Of a stretch of DNA of 28,282 nt, positions 8,890-27,357 are shown piece after piece. The notes beneath the pieces were generated by a model that was not told the origin of the DNA, did no database searches, and was given only the letters and a program-made list of their open reading frames with translations. The DNA is taken from NCBI GenBank assembly GCA_008704415.1, contig VXIS01000467.1:1-28282 (forward strand). The letters are read 5' to 3'. The position numbers and the translations under genes are program-made. This stretch comes from Sphaerosporella brunnea. Lineage: Eukaryota; Ascomycota; Pezizomycetes; Pezizales; Pyronemataceae. How positions within the stretch are numbered: position 1 is the stretch's first letter; every line of letters begins with the position of its first letter.

Positions 8890-9801
8890 TTTTCTCGGAC
8901 GAAGCGGCCTCCCGCCGCATCGCCCCGACTACGACTGTGTCACTACTGTCCGGATGGAGAGAAACACTCAACTTCAAAGATCTATGACATGAGCTAAGAG
9001 CAACCCACGACGCTCAAAGCTCTCCTCGATGTCGAGCTGAAAAAGGGATTCATGCGGCCATCGCACTCTGAGTCATCCGCCCCTGTTTTCTTCGTGACTG
9101 ATACACCCTCCGAGAGCTGCAACAAAGGACAACTCCGCTTGGTCGTTGACTACCGCGATTTGAACCGCAAAATCGAGCTGGACGAGTACCCGATTCCCCA
9201 CACGCGAACCGCCATAGCCCGCCTTCCGAAGGCCAAGAGCTTGACCAAGTTTGACGTCTGCTCCGGGTTCTCCAACATCCGCGTTGCCGCTGGTGCTGAA
9301 GCCGTTACCGCCTTCAAGACGCCTTTCGGTCTGCTCGAGTATCAGGTCATGCCCATGGGTCTCGCCACCGCGCCTTCAGTTTTCCAACGGTTCATCCACT
9401 CGGTTCTCGCCCCCTTGTTGGACATCTTCTGCTTCTCCTACCTCGATGACATCATCTTCTCAGACTCCGAGGAAGAGCACCGCGAACACGTCTGCCAAGT
9501 CCTCGAGGCCCTAGAACGCAACAAGCTTCACCTGAAGTCGGCCAAGTGCGTTTGAATCGTGGAGGTCAGCTTTCTGGAATATACTGCTGTTGCTGGGAAA
9601 GGGATCCGGATGTCCAAAGACAAGGTCACCAAAATGGCTGCCCTGGAATCGCCAAATAATGTCCATGAACTCCGTAAAGCCCTCAGCCTGATCAATGTCT
9701 ATGCCGGCTTGATTGCCCATTACTCGGACATGATTGCCGTTCTAACACGTTTAACTGCTAAGGACGTTCCCTGGGATTGGTCGCCAGCTTGCACCACCGT
9801 C
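8890..9801 (+). pseudogene. Ty3/gypsy reverse transcriptase with connection region
   Basis: An upstream segment (VFSDEAASRRIAPTTT) resembles the pre-RT linker. The RT follows: GQLRLVVDYRDLNRKIELD, TKFDVCSGFSNIRV, TAFKTPFGLLEYQVMPMGL, APSVFQRFI and the catalytic box FSYLDDIIFSD (YLDD codons 9439-9450), then NKLHLKSAKCV. A TGA at 9553-9555 stops the frame, but the same frame resumes with FLEYTAVAGKGIRMS and the connection-region pattern NVHELRKALSLINVYAGLI to 9801. Stops also lie upstream near 8985. The catalytic residues are kept while the frame is broken, so this is a moderately old dead copy. Confidence 0.88.
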
Positions 9802-10589
9802 CAGGGGTCCCAATAGTCCGGGCGCCCGCTAGTCCAAACGGGGCCCAACAGAGTGGGTCAGGTCGGGCCAACGGTTGGTGCAGCCTGATAGGTTCGAGCC
9901 GAGGTTCACAAAGCCTGGATATCTGATAGGTGCCGCCCGGGCCTGGTTATCCAGGGCAACGCTAAAAGCGCAGATCGTCGTCATGTTCGGGCTCTCCCGA
10001 CGGTTCACAAAAATGTGCGGTGCCGATCGCAATCAAAAACCTTGTTGATCCCCCGCACTTTTGCCGTCGGCAGCATCCTGCGCGACCGAAAGGGCATGGC
10101 GGACGGCATCTTGCACCTTCCGGCGAATTTTACTGGTGAAAAGCTCGTATTTTTTGTTCGTACTTTTGGAGATTTCGCGGCGGTTTGAGAAGATTTCCAA
10201 TCCTGGCGTGATGCTCACAAATCTAAAGGTTCCCGCAAGCCCAGAGAATAGTGTTTGCACTCGATCAAAGCTCTGTTAGACGAGCGTCCTGTTGGTGTGT
10301 CGGATTGTTCCATCCTCAGTTACGATGGTTGATTTGGAACAGCGGGCCGCGGAAATGGCGGTATAATTTCTTTATGTAGCCCTATCCTGTTTGTTAAAGC
10401 AATGGTTCGTCAGGTGCCTGGCGGGCCCTGTAGGCGCCAGAATTTTCTTGCCCTGATCGGGCCCCGTAGGCACCTGGGTCTAGCTCGACAAAGCCTGGTC
10501 CAAACGGGCCGGAATTTCAAAAGCCCGTTTCAAACAGTCCGGTTCAGGGGAGACTAAAAGCTGGACTGGACGGACTATTGGCACCCCTG
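9802..10589. mobile_element. hAT-like non-autonomous element, family B (788 bp)
   Basis: The ends are CAGGGGTCCCAATAGTCCG at the left and, from the right, CAGGGGTGCCAATAGTCCG (18 of 19). They are flanked by a perfect 8-bp duplication CCACCGTC (9794-9801 and 10590-10597). Deleting the element and one duplication rejoins the gypsy pol frame, DWSPACTTV into WTKIIVASQEE. The interior has a minus-strand stretch (SKIRRKVQDAVRHALSVAQD, about 10050-10200) that might be coding, but no transposase. AGTCCG and CCAAACGGGCC motifs recur near the ends. Confidence 0.92.
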
Positions 10590-11508: not shown

Positions 11509-12326
11509 GGAGTGATGGACATAAGCCGGCTCAAGCTGAGCCGTGGGGTCGGCTCGTGCAGGATCGGCTCATCACGACTTCGGCTCGCTGAGCTGAGCCG
11601 ATCGAGCCACCATACTATTTGCCATGCGCAAGCCGGTGTAAAAGGAGCAGGTCGAAGGACGTGAGATTCCGCGCGCTTCTATCTACAAATCAAACCTCAC
11701 GGGCATCCGAGTCCTCCACTCATCATTCAATGTCTGACAACTCCGACCCGGAATCAAGGCCTTCAAGTTTGAGCGCAGCTTCTGGCTGTGCGTCCATTCC
11801 CTCGGCCTTTCCGTCCCCCTCCAGGTCCCCATCGAGGTCTCCCTGCACCACTGCCTCCTGGTGAGCCTCGCCGCCACCGTAGATGTCCCAGCCGCTCTCA
11901 CCCTTGTGCTTGAGCCAGCTTTTAAGTAGCACAACGCGGACGGGGAGTCAACACAAACTTACCCCAACTTCAAGACATCTTCGTGTACAGGTCTTGAATT
12001 TGGTCTGCTACTCCGCCAGCAGCATAGCGGCGAGGGGGGTGTGTGGCCATGGTTCATGAGAGTGGTGGTTGACGGGGCGTTGATGGCGGAGGTGGGTGCA
12101 AGAGGACAGGTTATTTGCTTCAGCAGACCATAGAATTGGGTCGCTCAACCCACCGGAACTTTGTATGTTCCAACCTCTCGCAGCTCAAGCCAAAAGCTCG
12201 AGCCAAAGCTCGACTGACGGGGTAACCGGCTCGAGCCAGCTCGGCTCACACGCGATTCGGCTCATACCGGCTCAGCTCGTGGCTCAAGCCAAAAGTTCAA
12301 GCCGGCTCGGCTCATGTCCATCACTA
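11509..12326. mobile_element. Small hAT-like cargo element, type E, copy E1 (~818 bp)
   Basis: The left end reads AGTGATGGACATAAGCCGGC. The right end, on the opposite strand, reads TAGTGATGGACATGAGCCGA. Flanks TCCACAGG (11501-11508) and GCCACAGG (12327-12334) match at 7 of 8 positions, as expected for a hAT-type duplication, although the left end carries an extra G. Both subterminal regions are crowded with GAGCC/GGCTC motifs (11520-11610 and 12180-12320). The interior carries a degenerate copy of the small cargo gene on the minus strand. Confidence 0.72.
11723..12050 (-). pseudogene. Broken cargo-gene copy inside E1
   Basis: From an ATG at 12050 the minus strand reads MATHPPRRYAAGG, then ADQIQDLYTKMS, a TGA (11970-11972), then SWG. 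The 27257-27345 copy has NEIQALNKKMAGSWG at the same place, so the TGA probably replaces a glycine codon. Immediately after SWG lies GTAAGT, then a gap relative to the intact copy, and then LLKSWL (about 11912-11929). The frame continues to 11723 through a Gly/Asp-rich stretch ending GMDAQPEAALKLEGLDSG and a short acidic end. The region between SWG and LLKSWL is only about 30 nt here against roughly 80 nt in the intact copy, so part of the gene is deleted. Confidence 0.6.
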
Positions 12327-12878: not shown

Positions 12879-13812
12879 ATGCGGTCACGCCTGTTACGAC
12901 AGCACAACGCCTCCTCCGCTTTGTCAGTACCCACTCGCTCGGTGAATCCCCACCAACACCCTGACCCACCAAACACGCTGATGGGTAAGCTCGCCGCCAG
13001 GATCCCGGGTCACCCAGTAGCCACCGAGCGCTGTGCACCCTCTGTTCCCTGTCCATCCGGGAGGGTCATCGTGACGGACCAGGACGCAGCCCTTGCAGCC
13101 GCTGTCGTACATCAGACGCCCTCCGCCGAAGCCATTGCAGAATACTCAGACGGCTCACGCCTGGACAATGGCGACTGCGGGTACGCAGCCGTGACCCAGA
13201 TCGACCCGCAACAGAACAGCTGGAAACGCACATCCGCATATATTGGCGACAACAAGGAGACATACCGCACGGAGCTCTTCGGCATCGCCGCCGGTCTCGA
13301 AATGGCCCTCACGCACACCCTGGTCCGAAGCAACTCAACAGGGCGCGTCCGCCTCTGCACATATGCGCGAAACGCCTACAGCACGACACACCCGGACTCG
13401 GACAATGACTGCTACCCCGCATTACACGCGCGGAAGCTGCCCTGAGAGCCCAAGGGTGATCAGTGAAATACTACTGGGTGCCAGGCCACGCCGATGCAAC
13501 ACGATGGCAGACCACGTAGCGAAGGAGGCAGCGGGTGGCCGCATCAAATCCCTGACCGTGGACCTTCTATGCACCACTTCGCTCGCGAAGGTTGACCGCA
13601 AAGTCAGCAAGGCCAAAGCACACAACAGGGAGGCATGGCTAATCACGCATTGCAAACCCAAAGGGGACTACAGACGGAGGAAGACGGGTGACCCCATCGT
13701 TAGCAAGACCAGAAAGGCCCTCGCGTCTCGCTTCTACCAGCTGCGAGTAGGCAAGGCCCCTACCGGCCCATACATTCACCGGACTGGCCGCCGACAGGAC
13801 GACAGGTCCTGA
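12879..13812 (+). pseudogene. LINE RNase H and C-terminal region (L1), frameshifted
   Basis: The frame at 12879 runs through LAARIPGHPVATE (the linker typical upstream of RNase H) to AIAEYSDGSRLDNGDCGYAA and TYRTELFGIAAGLEMAL. These carry the first Asp and the catalytic Glu of RNase H. Near 13340-13440 the frame decays, and a second frame picks up with MADHVAKEAAGG, the RNase H end. It continues through LASRFYQLRVGKAPTGPYIH and RTGRRQDDRS to 13812. After 13815 further LINE sequence is readable (FKFCKKWKNEQRILWKEVLD), and beyond the type F insertion FADERCTKAVMDFLSTTKVG. Tad1-clade fungal LINEs have this domain order. Confidence 0.75.
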
Positions 13813-13922: not shown

Positions 13923-14140
13923 TAGTGTTCAGCATGAGCCGAGATATCTCGGTACTCCTCTCGGGCCTAAATGACGAGCGAGACGAACCTTCGTTCTGGA
14001 CGAGATGAGATATCCCGGGACGGATCTGATTAGGCGGCGATCAGGCCCGCGTACCGGTGAGTGATAAGTTATGATGTGCTGAGCGTGTTGAATAGGTCCG
14101 TGTTCAGATCTCGCCTCGCATCGTCTCGTGCCGAACACTA
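13923..14140. mobile_element. Type F hAT-like MITE, copy F1 (218 bp)
   Basis: The ends are TAGTGTTCAGCATGAGCCGA at the left and, from the right, TAGTGTTCGGCACGAGACGA. The flanks are AGGGAGAA (13915-13922) and AGGGATAA (14141-14148), 7 of 8 identical. It contains only subterminal sequence shared with F2 and F3 (GAGATATCTCGG, GGGCCTAAATGACGAGCGAG, GATCAGGCC, GAGTGATAAGTTATGATG) and no cargo gene, so it is an internal-deletion derivative of F2-like elements. It splits the L1 LINE coding region: the reading passes from VLDARGR on the left to QKRWPA on the right. Confidence 0.85.
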
Positions 14141-15496: not shown

Positions 15497-16488
15497 TTCT
15501 GGTACCCCCTTACGAGTTATGGCTACATTACCTTAAGGGCTACATAACGGTTTATTGACGGTGATGATTATCAACAGTGAGGCTGTATAATCATCTATAA
15601 GTCCACTCTATTAGGAAGTGTCCTAAGAGTTACAAGACTTACGTCATAATGGCAATGGTGAAGTTAGTTGCCGGTTCCCATAGAAAAATAGTTTTTTCCA
15701 GGGTACAAAATAACTCACCATTCGTGCGCATACAAATGAATAATGACAACTATGTTGGTCTAACACCTTGCAGTTGTCACAGGTTATTCACCATGAGTTA
15801 TATGGCAAAAAGTGGTTAGTTGCCGGTTCCCATAGAAAAATAGTTTTTTCCAGGGTACAAAATAACTCACATCACGTTGCGCCCGACCGTTATACCGGAA
15901 CGTACCCGGTGGGTATATGAGGGGAGCACCTGTGACAAGACTTGATAAGTACCAAAGTCACTTCGGTAATTGGTCATCACGTCATAGCTACTGCGGCACT
16001 TCAATAGGGCATTCTAGGCATCAAAGCTTACGCGTTCAATCACGCCATAGCTGCAAAAGAGTGTCCAAGTTGGAGTGGGAGTTATCTATAATCCCTGGCT
16101 AGTCAAAGAAGCTCGGTACCCTTACGTGGCAATAGGGGCAATTGTTCGTCCGAGGATTGGAAATCAACTTTGAGGCTCAAAGGCGAATCCGTCAGGATAT
16201 AACCTGCGAGATTTCCCTCGAGTTGAGAGACCACCAGAGTTAGCAGACATCATCGTTAGGATATTGTGAGGTTCAGCCTTAACAATATTGTCGTTTATAC
16301 AATCTATATTCGTTTCGAAATCTTTATTCTATTTTCCCTTCGGTACGAATATACTCGTACCATTAGCGAATCTTTCCCGATCCCGTATCTGAAAGCTCTT
16401 CGCCCAACAAGTGTCTTTTCCTTAGAAAAGGATTACTGTTTGGCCTATCTTCCTTGTACGCGGTTTAGTGAACCTAGTGGTTTTACAG
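15497..16488. other. Unidentified ~1-kb segment between two minus-strand LINE pieces
   Basis: AT-rich DNA with many stops on both strands. It contains the perfect 56-bp direct repeat described separately and a GGTACGA...TCGTACC inverted repeat at about 16341-16360. L5 on its right ends at NKAPTG and L3 on its left starts at VGVTGPY, adjacent positions in the LINE protein. It could therefore be an insertion that split one LINE, but I cannot find inverted ends or a target duplication. Confidence 0.4.
15663..15870. repeat. Perfect 56-bp direct repeat, copies 152 bp apart
   Basis: Identical 56-bp units lie at 15663-15718 and 15815-15870, each beginning GTTAGTTGCCGGTTCCCATA and ending AAAATAACTCAC. 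The upstream flanks are also loosely alike (ATGGCAATGGTGAA against ATGGCAAAAAGTG). No function assigned; they could be the ends of a small element or an unequal duplication. Confidence 0.92.
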
Positions 16489-17175
16489 ACCCCGTGGGAG
16501 CCTTATTCATCTTGAGCTGGAAGAAACGTGCGGCCAAGGATTTCGTGGCTCGGAATGCAGTCCTGTCGGCATGTTTTGGCCTCTTGTAGTAAGCCTAAGG
16601 TCGGCAATGTCTGAGAAGCCAAGCGTAGTGGTCTTGGCTCTTTGCCAGGCCGCGACCGACGTCACGTTGAGCATTTCCTCGTCCAGCGTTCTATCAGGGG
16701 GGTCTCGCTGCTTCTTTGGCCAGCCTGCCGGCCGTCTCGTTGCCCGGCACGTCCAGTTGGCGTGGGACCAAGCGGAACTCGGCTTTCCACGCTTCCGCGT
16801 TCCGGGCGGCCTCCGCTCGGCATATGCGTAGAAGCAGGTGTTGGCCGGGTCCGGGGGAGCCGTTCTGTAGCCTTCTCACGGCCGCTTGCGCGTCGATGGA
16901 GATCCGTATCGTACCCTGATTGCTCCGGATGGGCGGATGAAGGAGGGCGAGCTCTAGGCCAGCAGCAATACCGAACAACCCTGCGTCATAGGCTTCCTTG
17001 TTGCAACCGATGTAGGCGGCGTCGTTGAAGCACCGGTCCTGTTTGTGGCGGTCGCGCGTCGCGGCCGAGTAGTCGCAGTTGCCGTTCTCCAGTCGCCGTC
17101 GGTGTATATTGATAGTGAGCGTGCGGTTAGTTCTTGCCACATGACAGCTGTCTGAAGAGCTCGACAATGGTAAGG
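16489..17175 (-). pseudogene. LINE RNase H fragment (L5), frameshifted
   Basis: On the minus strand SIYTDG (about 17098-17115) is followed after a frameshift by RLENGNCDYSAATR, CNKEAYDAGLFGIAAGLELA and ISIDAQAAVRRLQNG, ending LVPRQLDVPGNETAGRLAKE-AA at about 16700. These are the RNase H motifs of Tad1-like LINEs (YTDG, E-AYDAELFGIAAGL, DAQAAVRRL, VPGHxxVPGNExAxxLAKEA), with several key positions altered. After another frame change KSLAARFFQLKMNKAPTG (about 16490-16543) aligns with RFYQLRVGKAPTG of L1. Sequence then diverges abruptly. Confidence 0.7.
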
Positions 17176-17544
17176 TCGTCGGTGGCGACTTACATAAATT
17201 TGTCTCAGCGGCCTCATCAATTTCAAAGACGTCAATTGGGAGAAAACTCTCATCATACAAGCGACCTTTTCCGGCCTGCGACAGGACAGTGCTTTTTCGT
17301 GTCACGTGATGTTCCCTGGCCATTGTGCGTTCAAAAACCCGCCACAACCAGACAAACCGCACCTTTTTCCGCGTTTTCGCCTTCTCTCGGCATCCACCGC
17401 TCCCGTTTCATCTCGGCGCTTGTAGGGTTGTCTATAGGGTTGTGTATAGGGGTGAGTGAGAAGGGGTGCTGGAACGTAGATAGACCTACCCGAACGCCTC
17501 ACCACCGCCCTGGTGCTTTCCTTGGCGTTCCTGCCAACCCCTTT

Positions 17545-22150: not shown

Positions 22151-22560
22151 TAGTGATGCATAAGAGCCGGCTCCTGTCGAGCCAAGGGGTGCGTTCGAGC
22201 TGACTCGGCTCGATGGAGTGCCAGGCTCGTGGAGCCGAGCCGAGCCTGGAAAGCTGGAGCCAAAGCTAGAGCTGCCATACTGTTTTTGATGTGCGAGGCG
22301 GCCCGGGTCAGATTCTGGTTCTTCGCTATGTGCAGATCAAACCTCGCACGCACCGTGTCCATCCTTCGACATATCACTCCATATCCGTCAAATTTGATGC
22401 CGAATTGAAGGCTTCTTCTTGCTGCGCGTCCATTCCCTGGCGCTCCACCTGCATGTCTGTGTCACTCTCCGCAGCATCTGTGGGTATATCGCACCTGGTA
22501 GTCTTATCATTACCAGACCAAAGATTTATGCCTGTTCTTACTCTAAGTACCGTCAAGTCC
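22151..22560. mobile_element. One-ended type E element, copy E2
   Basis: The left end reads TAGTGATGCATAAGAGCCGG, followed by about 110 bp dense in GAGCC/GGCTC. It then shares interior sequence with E1 (ATCAAACCTC, and GCGTCCATTCCC preceded by related DNA). No CATCACTA right end is found downstream, and from about 22560 the sequence belongs to the CACTA-type remnant, so the element is truncated. The right limit is approximate. Confidence 0.6.
22374..22556 (-). pseudogene. Cargo-gene C-terminus inside E2
   Basis: The minus strand carries an acidic stretch containing AAESDTDMQVERQGMDAQQE and ending in a short acidic tail, with the stop at 22374. The E1 copy has GMDAQPEAALKLEGLDSG and a similar acidic end in the same position relative to the element terminus. 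The GNW and KSW segments are absent. This identifies E2 as carrying only the last third of the gene. Confidence 0.5.
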
Positions 22561-25035: not shown

Positions 25036-25215
25036 TAGTGTTGGGCACGAGACGAGACGAGATGAGATCTGAACATGGCCTGGGATGTCTCGTCTCGTGG
25101 AGAGAAAAGTCTCGCGGGCTTGGGACATGGACATCAGGCCCGGCGTGTACCCGGGCCTACCATGCACGTCAGGCCTTGGAGTGAAGTTCGGTCGTTCAAT
25201 TTAAATGCTATTACT

Positions 25216-25533
25216 CTATACATCGTCCCCCGCAGCAGGCCATTCCCCCTCGTTCACCCACTCTGCCACTTCGTCTTCGTATTCGCGCTCCCATTCTTCC
25301 ACATCCGGCTGTCCGATCCAATTCTTCACAAGAAGAAGGATGTTTGCGGTGCTGTCACCCAGCCTGTTTCGCTTTAGAGAATAGCCTTTCAGCTGGTAGT
25401 CTTCGAGCCATTCCTGCTCCCATGAATAGTTACTCCAGTTTCCTGCAATACGTTGCATGAATTCCTTTTTCAGAGCGCCGGAATCTTGGGGCCCCGCATC
25501 TTGGGGCTCGGCGATGGGGTTGGGGTCAGTCAT
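25216..25533 (-). CDS. Intact cargo gene of F2: 105-residue acidic, Trp-rich protein, unknown function
   Basis: A single uninterrupted exon starts at the ATG 25533-25531 (the frame extends upstream only through non-ATG codons) and ends with TAG at 25218-25216. The protein has a Pro/Asp/Gln-rich start (MTDPNPIAEPQDAGPQDSG), a conserved block IAGNWSNYSWEQEWLEDYQL, then KRNRLGDSTANILLLVKNWI and GQPDVEEWEREYEDEVAEWV, and an acidic end (NEGEWPAAGDDV). Relatives within the window share GNW/SWG, NRL, LLLKSWL-type and DVEQWERE segments. No signal peptide, membrane segment or known catalytic motif is visible. At 105 residues it cannot be a DDE transposase. It lies wholly inside F2, with TATA at 25613-25622 about 80 nt upstream. 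It could be an accessory DNA-binding or regulatory protein or captured host sequence; both are inference. Confidence 0.7.
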   Translation of the reverse strand: MTDPNPIAEPQDAGPQDSGALKKEFMQRIAGNWSNYSWEQEWLEDYQLKGYSLKRNRLGDSTANILLLVKNWIGQPDVEEWEREYEDEVAEWVNEGEWPAAGDDV

Positions 25534-25612
25534 ATTGAAGCGCAACGCACGCAGTTGAGGCCAGTGTAATGGTAGAAGAACGGAAGAAAGGAAGCTATCT
25601 GCCGCCCCTGCA

Positions 25613-25622
25613 CCTTATATCC
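25613..25622 (-). promoter_or_regulatory. TATA box of the F2 cargo gene
   Basis: The minus strand reads GGATATAAGG, about 80 nt before the ATG at 25533. The same promoter block (GATCTAGGGTTGAGTGCACG ... GAGGATATAAGGTGC ... GATAGCTTCCTT) is conserved in the opposite orientation at 26878-26952 in F3, so it belongs to the element's cargo unit. Confidence 0.6.
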
Positions 25623-25689
25623 TCTTCTCGCCTCACTTTCGTGCACTCAACCCTAGATCTGAACCGTAACTCATCACTCACGAAGTACC

Positions 25690-26467
25690 TAGTGATGGAC
25701 ACGAGCCGAGACGAGCCGAGCCGAGCCGAGCCTTCGTCCTCTCCGAGCCGAGCTGGCTTGAGCTGAGGGTGGAGGATCGGCTCGAGCCAGCTCGAGTTTT
25801 CACCATGATCGGTGATTGGGGGTTCTGATGGGGCGGGGCGAATGTTATACAATGAAAACCGATAATCATATACACCCACCTACCCATAACTACCAAGTTC
25901 GTGCAGCTATGGCAGACAAATCGTCGGATGCACTGGCCCCGGATGAGCGTGCTGCTTATTTAAAAACGCTATCAGGGAACTGGGGTATACTCACTGAATG
26001 CTTGCTAATATCCCTCTATACCACAAGTATCCTGGCTGAGAGTCTTTTCTTCCAACCTGGAGATCGTATCGTCAAAAAGGGAAACAGGCTCTTAGAAACT
26101 TCAAGTAGCGCTTACTTGTTGCTTAAAAGCTGGTTGGGGCTTGATGATGTGGAGCAGTGGGAACGTGAAAGGTTAAGCAAGGAGGATGCAGGAGAGATTG
26201 ACAGTGGCGATGGGGTTCCTGTTCCCAATACCCATCAGGAATCACTACTAGATAGTGACAATGATGCGGATGCCGAGGAATTGTAGTCAGTTTATATTCC
26301 TAGATATGTTGAATACTATTACAATTATGTGGTAAAGCAGAACAGCTCGAGCTAGCTCGAGCTGACACCCAAGGCTCGGACGCGAGCCCGAGCCTCCACC
26401 TCCACGAGCCGAGCCAGCTCGAGCTGACTTTGGAGGATTGATTCGAGCCGGCTCGTGTCCATCACTA
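25690..26467. mobile_element. Type E hAT-like cargo element, copy E3 (778 bp), nested in F2
   Basis: The ends are TAGTGATGGACACGAGCCGA at the left and, from the right, TAGTGATGGACACGAGCCGG, identical for the first 19 bases. The flanks are CGAAGTACC (25681-25689) and CGAATACC (26468-26475). The homologous unoccupied site in F3 reads CACTCACGAGTACGCAGG, so the original 8-bp target was about CGAGTACC, with one inserted base on the left and one substitution on the right. Subterminal DNA is rich in GAGCCGAGCC and CTCGAGCTGA. It carries a cargo-gene copy on the plus strand. Confidence 0.85.
25909..26286 (+). CDS. Cargo gene of E3: 125-residue paralogue of the F2 protein
   Basis: From the ATG at 25909 (MADKSSDALAPDERAAYLKT) the frame is open to TAG at 26284-26286. 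Shared landmarks with the F2 protein are LSGNWG, KKGNRLLETSSSAYLLLKSW and LGLDDVEQWERERLSKEDAG, ending in an acidic tail (LLDSDNDADAEEL). Between GNWG and GNRL the residues (ILTECLLISLYTTS...) do not match. That DNA begins with GTATAC right after TGGG and contains GCTAAT, so it may contain a 43-nt intron or intron remnant, but no acceptor I tried restores the downstream frame exactly. The protein may thus be read as shown or the gene may be slightly damaged. A TTATACAA motif lies about 65 nt upstream. It lies wholly inside E3. Confidence 0.55.
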   Translation: MADKSSDALAPDERAAYLKTLSGNWGILTECLLISLYTTSILAESLFFQPGDRIVKKGNRLLETSSSAYLLLKSWLGLDDVEQWERERLSKEDAGEIDSGDGVPVPNTHQESLLDSDNDADAEEL

Positions 26468-26667
26468 CGAATACCCGGGCCTGATCGCCGCGTAATCAGA
26501 TCCGTGGCGGGATATCTCGTCTCGTCCAGAAATAACGTTCGTCTCGCTCGTCAGTTAGGCCCGAGACGAGTACCCGGGATATCTCGGCTCGTGCCCAACA
26601 CTAGGCCCGGGGGAGGGGGGGTTCGGATGTGCGATGGCTTGAAGCCAAAGGTATCAGATCTAAGACA

Positions 26668-26997
26668 ATGCCACTTTCGGCACGAGCCGATATATCTCGG
26701 GTACTCGTCTCGGGCCTAAATGACCAGCGAGACCAACCTTTGTCCTGGACGAGACGAGATATCCCGGGACGGATCTGATTAGGTGGCGATCAGGCCTGCG
26801 TACTCGTGAGTGATAAGTTATGATGTTGAATAGATCCGTGTGCTGTGATCTGTTGGCCATCCATTGATGTAGGCGTTGGATCTAGGGTTGAGTGCACGAG
26901 GGCGAGGCAAGAAGAGGATATAAGGTGCGGGGCGGTAGATAGCTTCCTTGCTTCAGACTGGGTGAACAAGGGCGAATGGGCAGCTGAGGAGGACGAT
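26668..26997. mobile_element. Type F element, partial copy F3, inverted relative to F2
   Basis: From CGGCACGAGCCGATATATCT (about 26675) the sequence follows the right arm of F1/F2 (GGGCCTAAATGACCAGCGAG, GATATCCCGGGACGGATCTG, GATCAGGCCTGCGTACTCGT). The cargo promoter block follows (26878-26952, TATA at 26917-26925) and then, directly, the last codons of the cargo gene. The middle of the gene is deleted. The first five terminal bases are degraded, and the far end is hidden by E5 or lost. Confidence 0.7.
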
Positions 26998-27003
26998 CAG
27001 TGA
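26956..27003 (+). pseudogene. Cargo-gene C-terminus in F3, fused to its promoter by deletion
   Basis: Codons read DWVNKGEWAAEEDDQ and a TGA, matching AEWVNEGEWPAAGDDV of the F2 gene. They begin 4 nt after the conserved promoter/leader block, so the start codon and about 85 residues are missing. The last codon (CAG) and the TGA stop come from the terminus of the inserted E5 element (CAGTGATGGACAC from 26998). Confidence 0.6.
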
Positions 27004-27357
27004 TGGACACAAGCCGAGCCGGCACGAGCCAAAGGCTGGAGCTGCAAGCCGAGCCGAGTAGAGCCTGGCCCCCTGACGAGCCGAGCAGGCTCGAACGGGT
27101 TTCCTACCGAGCCGAGCTTTGGCTCGAGCTTTTGGCTCGAGCCCGGTGGTGGGAGAAGACCCTAGATGGCCGTGTGGGGCGGAAAATACAAAAATATGCT
27201 ATCAAATTCCATGATTGCGAAAGCTCAAAGAAAAGGCCACCCACACATCCTCTTCAGCCCCCACCACAACACACTCACGCCGAAAAAATCACCAATGAAA
27301 TTCAGGCATTGAACAAGAAGATGGCGGGTAGTTGGGGTAATTGCTACTTGATATGAC
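26998..27357. mobile_element. One-ended type E element, copy E5
   Basis: The left end CAGTGATGGACACAAGCCGA has C in place of T at the first position. It is followed by about 150 bp of GAGCC/GGCTCGAG-rich DNA, then a broken cargo-gene N-terminus. No CATCACTA right end occurs before the window edge, so the element is truncated or its right end has decayed; the right limit given is only the end of recognised homology. Confidence 0.65.
27233..27357 (+). pseudogene. Cargo-gene N-terminus inside E5
   Basis: The plus strand reads KRPPTHPLQPPPQHTHAEKI and TNEIQALNKKMAGSWG, matching MATHPPRRY...ADQIQDLYTKMS-x-SWG of the E1 copy. The AAGGCCACCCAC here corresponds to ATGGCCACACAC in E1, so the start codon is changed to AAG. 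After SWG comes GTAATT and the frame stops (TGA, 27355-27357). The rest of the gene is missing. Confidence 0.55.

Follow-up and report, generated by a model that had tools for sequence, protein, structure and literature searches.

One question raised by this DNA of the ascomycete Sphaerosporella brunnea is whether a small open reading frame (ORF), recurring inside short hAT-like transposons, is a gene in its own right or the residue of something larger. The initial annotation of the window (contig C409, the whole stretch of 28,282 nucleotides analysed here) distinguished two related types of hAT-like element with 8-bp duplications, E and F, and proposed that they carry one conserved miniprotein gene at six places, intact in the element F2, open in E3 and broken in the remaining four. 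Comparison with the genome to which the window belongs (50.57 Mb in 640 contigs) leads to a different picture. The elements are almost certainly non-autonomous hAT transposons, derived through loss of internal sequence from the full-size hAT elements (~2.8-3.2 kb) that this genome contains, and the "conserved miniprotein gene" is, as judged from sequence comparison, the leftover start and end of a transposase and not a gene of its own. F2 and E3 are thus Ds-like internal-deletion elements. The assignment to hAT and the division into two related element types have stood; full-size elements with the same or one-base-different termini contain frames for hAT transposase, the duplication is perfect around F2 and degenerate around E3, and the frames of both are indeed open (Table 1).

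Table 1. Features of the window discussed in the text, with the comparisons on which each assignment rests
Feature	Coordinates	Strand	Description and evidence
E1	11510..12326	.	Decayed E-type element; 11726-11935 (-) is a C161-type transposase C-terminal tail, 40% over 72
E2	22151..22484	-	C161-type element 3' end (22151-22477, 75.9% over 361 columns); transposase C-terminal tail at 22377-22484 (-), 65% over 40
F2	25036..26603	.	F-type non-autonomous hAT element; termini exact at both ends; perfect 8-bp duplication GGCCCGGG on both sides
F2 ORF (105 aa)	25216..25533	-	Open; three collinear blocks vs C377: 88%, 23/23, 81%
E3	25690..26467	.	Non-autonomous hAT element of E-type, 778 bp long and lying within F2; degenerate duplication, left CGAAGTACC, right CGAATACC
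E3 ORF (125 aa)	25909..26286	+	Open; 76% over 92 residues, 62% over 29 residues to L058
F3	26676..26997	+	Remnant of an F-type element; 84.6% to L016 in the 5' terminal region, followed by the 3' end of the F-type gene (44 bp at 26954-26997, 97.7%), interrupted by E5
E5	26998..27354	+	C161-type hAT element 5' end and putative first exon; 26999-27287 is the 5' end, 89.6% over 289; 27295-27354 is the putative first exon, 95% over 60

Full-size hAT elements with the same termini

The termini of both types occur in the genome far more often than expected by chance. The E-type terminus TAGTGATGGACACGAG, at no more than one mismatch, is found 258 times on the forward and 246 times on the reverse strand, the reversed pattern 0 and 0 times; the F-type terminus TAGTGTTGGGCACGAG, common to F2 and a decayed 2.8-kb element on contig C377, is found at up to two mismatches 255 and 262 times, as against 12 and 14 for the reversed pattern. 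A MITE is by definition short, non-coding and of high copy number; the E-type has about 250 termini per strand but also residual coding ends, some of them open.

Full-length hAT elements with these termini are present and contain transposase frames, which counts against an independent miniprotein gene. Three were recovered, all with an 8-bp target-site duplication: C176:54859-58014, of 3,156 bp, has exact E-type termini between two copies of CTTGGGGT and contains open frames of 706 and 107 codons; C161:59511-62629, of 3,119 bp, also has exact E-type termini and is flanked left and right by ATCGCGAC; C179:5043-8054, of 3,012 bp, has termini one base off the F-type, ACTGGAAG on either side and a frame of 803 codons. 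The C179 frame matches the Pfam family Dimer_Tnp_hAT with 75.5 bits (cut-off 21.4) and the chains of the Hermes transposase with an E value of 3.8e-15. Likewise, the 706-codon frame of C176, 66% identical to that of C179, matches Dimer_Tnp_hAT with 45.5 bits (same cut-off), and the C-terminal region of the C161 element does so with 60.2 bits, with one stop inside (C161:61938-62099). The 515-codon N-terminal piece of C161 matched no Pfam family, and a Pfam search of the full-size frames gave no BED match; a zinc-finger-like arrangement, CxxC...HxxxxH, can be read by eye in the 803-codon transposase at about residues 96-126. Positions of start codons in the full-size elements are putative.

These transposases account for the motifs by which the small ORFs had been grouped. 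The series KRNRL...LLLVKNWI or LLLKSWL...DVEEWERE is present as described, but it is the C-terminus of hAT transposases of the S. brunnea genome and does not belong to a separate gene. Both the catalytic core and the part of the transposase with the zinc-finger-like region (read by eye) are missing from the F2 and E3 ORFs.

Two reading frames made by deletion

Once the nested E3 and one copy of its duplication are discounted, F2 is about 782 bp long. Its history is best followed against the element on C377, a decayed F-type copy of ~2.8 kb in which both halves of the F2 ORF are present ~2 kb apart (N-terminal, 66% over 58; C-terminal, 89% over its best 38 residues), with a hAT transposase, broken by stops, between them. 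In DNA, F2 positions 1-294 align to C377 positions 127-416, 292-314 to 2437-2459 (23/23) and 315-653 to 2483-2810; relative to C377, F2 has an internal deletion of ~2 kb joined at a shared 3 bp (TAC), plus a separate 23-bp deletion. The ORF thereby joins ~49 start codons of the transposase gene (codons 1-49) to its last ~52 codons (codons ~54-105). The residues between these halves stem from the stretch that separates the two deletions, which codes for part of the dimerisation domain in the transposase but is read in a different frame in F2. Of the dimerisation region (residues 665-744), F2 retains just the last part, from residue 725 on.

The closest sibling of F2, on C22, has the same large junction and retains the 23 bp; it is out of frame, has ATA where F2 has ATG, and meets a stop after 76 residues. 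F2 owes its read-through to a private 23-bp deletion, and among the matches found the 105-codon frame is peculiar to F2. A genome search with the F2 ORF (150 of 199 candidates scored) gave at least 94 matches; as counted from the 94 listed, the whole ORF is matched once, by the window itself, the N-terminal half 10 times, and the part from residue 41 or later onward 82 times, with a single match, C161:70845, spanning residues 9-91.

The E3 ORF appears to be built like that of F2, in the second family, its N-terminal half being less firmly placed. The related C377 element, which lacks E3, has at the site of the E3 insertion GGTACTCG in gene-strand orientation, equivalent to CGAGTACC. Residues 34-125 of the ORF correspond to the C-terminus of an E-family transposase (part of the Dimer_Tnp_hAT region and the tail) and are 76%, 75% and 76% identical, over 92 residues, to L058, L059 and L061, whereas residues 1-30 or 1-35 are 57-63% identical to a piece lying 5' of the transposase sequence in L055, L058, L059 and L061. 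E3 is collinear with the longer L058, which has the same termini (25712-26001 to 987-1238; 26009-26467 to 1606-2068). L058 (1,130 bp) and L059 (1,048 bp), both with perfect duplications, were already without the central part of the gene, and a further ~370 bp is gone from E3. The N-terminal half of E3 is placed less firmly than that of F2 because these four relatives are themselves deleted and because its match to C176 is weak (11 residues, E 0.094). Among those examined, L058, L059 and L061 are the nearest longer relatives of E3, all of them partial and none full-size; the full-size C176 and C161 elements were rejected as direct parents, for they share the termini of E3 but only ~34-37% identity in the aligned C-terminal part.

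The remaining places in the window

The claim that one gene is copied at six places could not be upheld: when aligned to longer elements, E1, E2, F3 and E5 hold single ends of transposase genes, and the fused ORF is confined to F2 and E3.

Other repeats accompany them in the window. A further F-like element of 218 bp occupies 13923-14140; its flanks, AGGGAGAA and AGGGATAA, are alike at 7 of 8 positions, its sequence is 82-91% identical to F-type terminal regions, and no transposase match was found within it. The segment 4358-4610 matches both flanks of an F-type element on C474 (L070 100-173 and 1627-1801) with the element itself absent, and looks like an unoccupied copy of the repeat that flanks the C474 element. 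The 306 bp at 16185-16490 are 97.7% identical to the start of L067, a flank of the E-type element there, and this degree of identity points to a recent repeat or duplication. By eye, we take 9052-9816 to be a broken Ty3/gypsy-like reverse transcriptase, and 12879-13445 and 16694-17362 to be a related pair of RNase H-like fragments from a LINE-type element.

A graded series of deletions

The F-type elements form a series of lengths (2,803, 1,770, 1,444, 1,337, ~900 and 805 bp) with differing junctions. Among 15 that were extracted, the N-terminal coding half is absent from nine and matching 8-bp duplications from four. For the E-type, 27 elements shorter than 4 kb could be paired from the first 100 of the 504 terminus places, all of these being exact matches. 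The proposal that such elements repeatedly carry the ORF fares poorly here, the whole mini-ORF being present in four of the 27, part of it in nine and no listed E3 match in 14, where the counts without a match are upper bounds, as the comparison is with the E3 matches listed and not with all. In one case, on C133, a pair encloses another, and the part assigned to the outer pair is that of the inner element; at least two of the 14 pairs without a listed E3 match (C161:59511 and C80:15579) hold other transposase sequence. Another of the 27, on C67, encloses an F-type element. This arrangement (L003:1164-2879) is the reverse of the nesting in the window, with the F-type element at 1501-2406 (GTCGCTTC on both sides) inside the E-type element (AGTGACCA/AGTGATCA).

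The coding ends of the transposase genes lie within ~300 bp of the terminal repeats, so that deletions sparing the ends needed in cis will often spare the first and last codons as well. Such deletions would result from faulty repair or replication, with which the 3-bp sharing at the F2 junction is consistent. Where the deletion, or a later small one, happened to be in frame, a mini-ORF of 100-125 codons would be formed by chance. The short elements would then be mobilised in trans by the transposase of full-size relatives, and the E3-type may have spread by virtue of its recognised ends and not of its ORF, the latter probably being without function.

Selection and divergence

A genome search with E3 (150 of 403 candidates scored) gave at least 151 matches, at least 27 of which, counted among the matches listed and including the window, begin by residue 14 and extend to residue 110. 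For the analysis of codon changes we assembled 21 rows: E3, 19 of the other 26 full-span matches, and C459, which covers residues 1-103 only. In ten of the 21 the frame is 110-140 codons long; an eleventh row, L088, is open too but shifts frame locally. Changes confined to single rows comprise 41 synonymous, 171 non-synonymous and 9 stop changes, against 53.1, 157.3 and 10.7 expected without selection; on terminal branches the counts are 61, 232 and 11 against 75.5, 215.4 and 13.2 (omega ~1.33, p 0.046). No purifying selection was thus seen on the terminal branches of these 21 rows, and this apparent neutrality speaks against a conserved miniprotein gene. Because the copies were chosen for long matches, with a bias towards open ones, this neutral result is if anything conservative. 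The internal branches, with 27 synonymous, 47 non-synonymous and no stop changes (omega ~0.61, p 0.046), have a weak synonymous excess, which would follow from transposase-coding ancestors, yet leans the other way: some constraint on the ORF may have acted.

Divergence from E3 averages 10.1% in the ORF and 6.1% in the adjoining 3' non-coding end (18 of 20 copies, the two with fewer than 120 aligned bases being left out); compared with upstream DNA, the mean divergence of the ORF is 0.100 against 0.101 (13 of 20 copies, with at least 100 aligned bases). Against four relatives, the divergence of the F2 ORF does not regularly exceed that of the flanks: 7.5% against 7.2 and 6.5% for L010, 9.1% against 6.1 and 6.2% for L012, 6.8% against 8.9% and 7.7% for L013, and 16.1% against 9.4 and 21.3% for L016. 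Across 24 rows of the F-type C-terminal piece (F2 and 23 of the 82 matches to the C-terminal half), terminal branches give an omega of 0.71 (p 0.063) and internal branches one of 0.48 (p 0.073); transposase-coding ancestors would likewise produce such values, which are not counted in favour of neutrality.

Alternative readings

By analogy with the KP derivative of the Drosophila P element, the mini-ORF might encode a truncated transposase that represses full-size hAT elements, a reading that we regard as very improbable. The amplification of the E3-type (at least 27 full-span matches of 151, as qualified above), the openness of about half of its rows and the internal-branch omega of ~0.61 are compatible with it, and repressors encoded by internally deleted P elements are described in PMC7776569 and PMC12393704. 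P-element repressors, however, retain the DNA-binding domain according to PMC12393704, and the zinc-finger-like region is absent from both ORFs; moreover, F2 keeps the end of the dimerisation region alone, and according to PMC4763223 the hAT domain of Hermes is no independent folding unit. The E3-type terminal branches are neutral and the F2 sibling on C22 is out of frame. A narrower version, that the E3-type ORF was kept open at source copies for part of its history and that its fused ends interfere with the full-size transposase, is hardly more than a few chances in a hundred in our estimation; if true, the E3-type ORF would give a fungus its own self-limiting system, KP-like but lacking a DNA-binding domain.

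That the DNA of the ORF is retained for its own sake, as subterminal transposase-binding sites or as a spacer, and not for a protein, is unlikely as a full account. The lower divergence of the E3-type 3' subterminal DNA than of the ORF (6.1% vs 10.1%) is in its favour, as is the influence of hAT subterminal repeats on transposase activity reported in PMC4763223. Perfect duplications nevertheless also flank elements that were deleted differently and lack one coding end, and the ORF DNA as a whole is on this evidence not needed; the DNA-level reading supplements the main explanation and does not replace it. That the elements captured the ORF from the host, or carry it as an accessory gene, is a proposal to which we give almost no credence. 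Pfam, it is true, calls neither ORF a transposase: neither has a hAT match, E3 has no match at all, and the sole match of F2, to bacHORMA_2, was discarded as sub-threshold (16.9 bits, cut-off 27.3). But one half aligns to the beginning and the other to the end of hAT transposase genes of the same genome, and a search of F2 against 5.8 billion proteins returned four hits among six candidates, each covering at most 50% of F2, the named one being S. brunnea FN846DRAFT_903994 (PF05699, 77% identity over 50%). The genome alignments of both halves and this protein search contradict a captured gene, and in place of a gene of unknown function we see in the ORF a remnant of the transposase gene after internal deletion.

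Significance and comparison with known systems

Internal deletion of full-size hAT elements, the preferred explanation, makes the finding an ordinary one, already understood in kind. Its use lies in clearing up a misleading trail: a small ORF that recurs in short transposons mimics a new gene family, and the likeness disappears on comparison with the ends of full-size transposases. The fused ORFs go unrecognised by Pfam. A by-product is a view of the hAT families of one fungal genome, with full-size copies and graded deletion copies side by side. In the literature searched we found no description of S. brunnea elements of these types.

Ds, the internally deleted and non-autonomous counterpart of Ac in maize, is the familiar hAT example of such an origin, and the P element belongs to another superfamily than hAT. 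Mar of Drosophila has been explained in the same way, as an internally deleted hAT element moved in trans (PMC3517528). The S. brunnea elements are Mar-like and Ds-like in being short, in having the termini of full-size hAT elements and 8-bp duplications, in their internal deletion followed by amplification, and in their longer relic copies. They differ in that Mar is described, in PMC3517528, as having no coding capacity and AT-rich subterminal DNA, whereas some S. brunnea copies retain readable coding ends of a transposase and the subterminal DNA is GAGCC/GAGAC-rich. KP and related P elements of Drosophila likewise owe a shorter open frame to internal deletion (PMC7776569, PMC12393704), but the P-element repressors keep the DNA-binding domain, as stated in PMC12393704, and the corresponding region is lost from the S. 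brunnea ORFs. Among fungi, Restless, Drifter and Tfo1 are hAT transposases according to PMC4763223, which gives 8-bp duplications and a C-terminal hAT domain as features of the family; in belonging to hAT they are like the S. brunnea elements.
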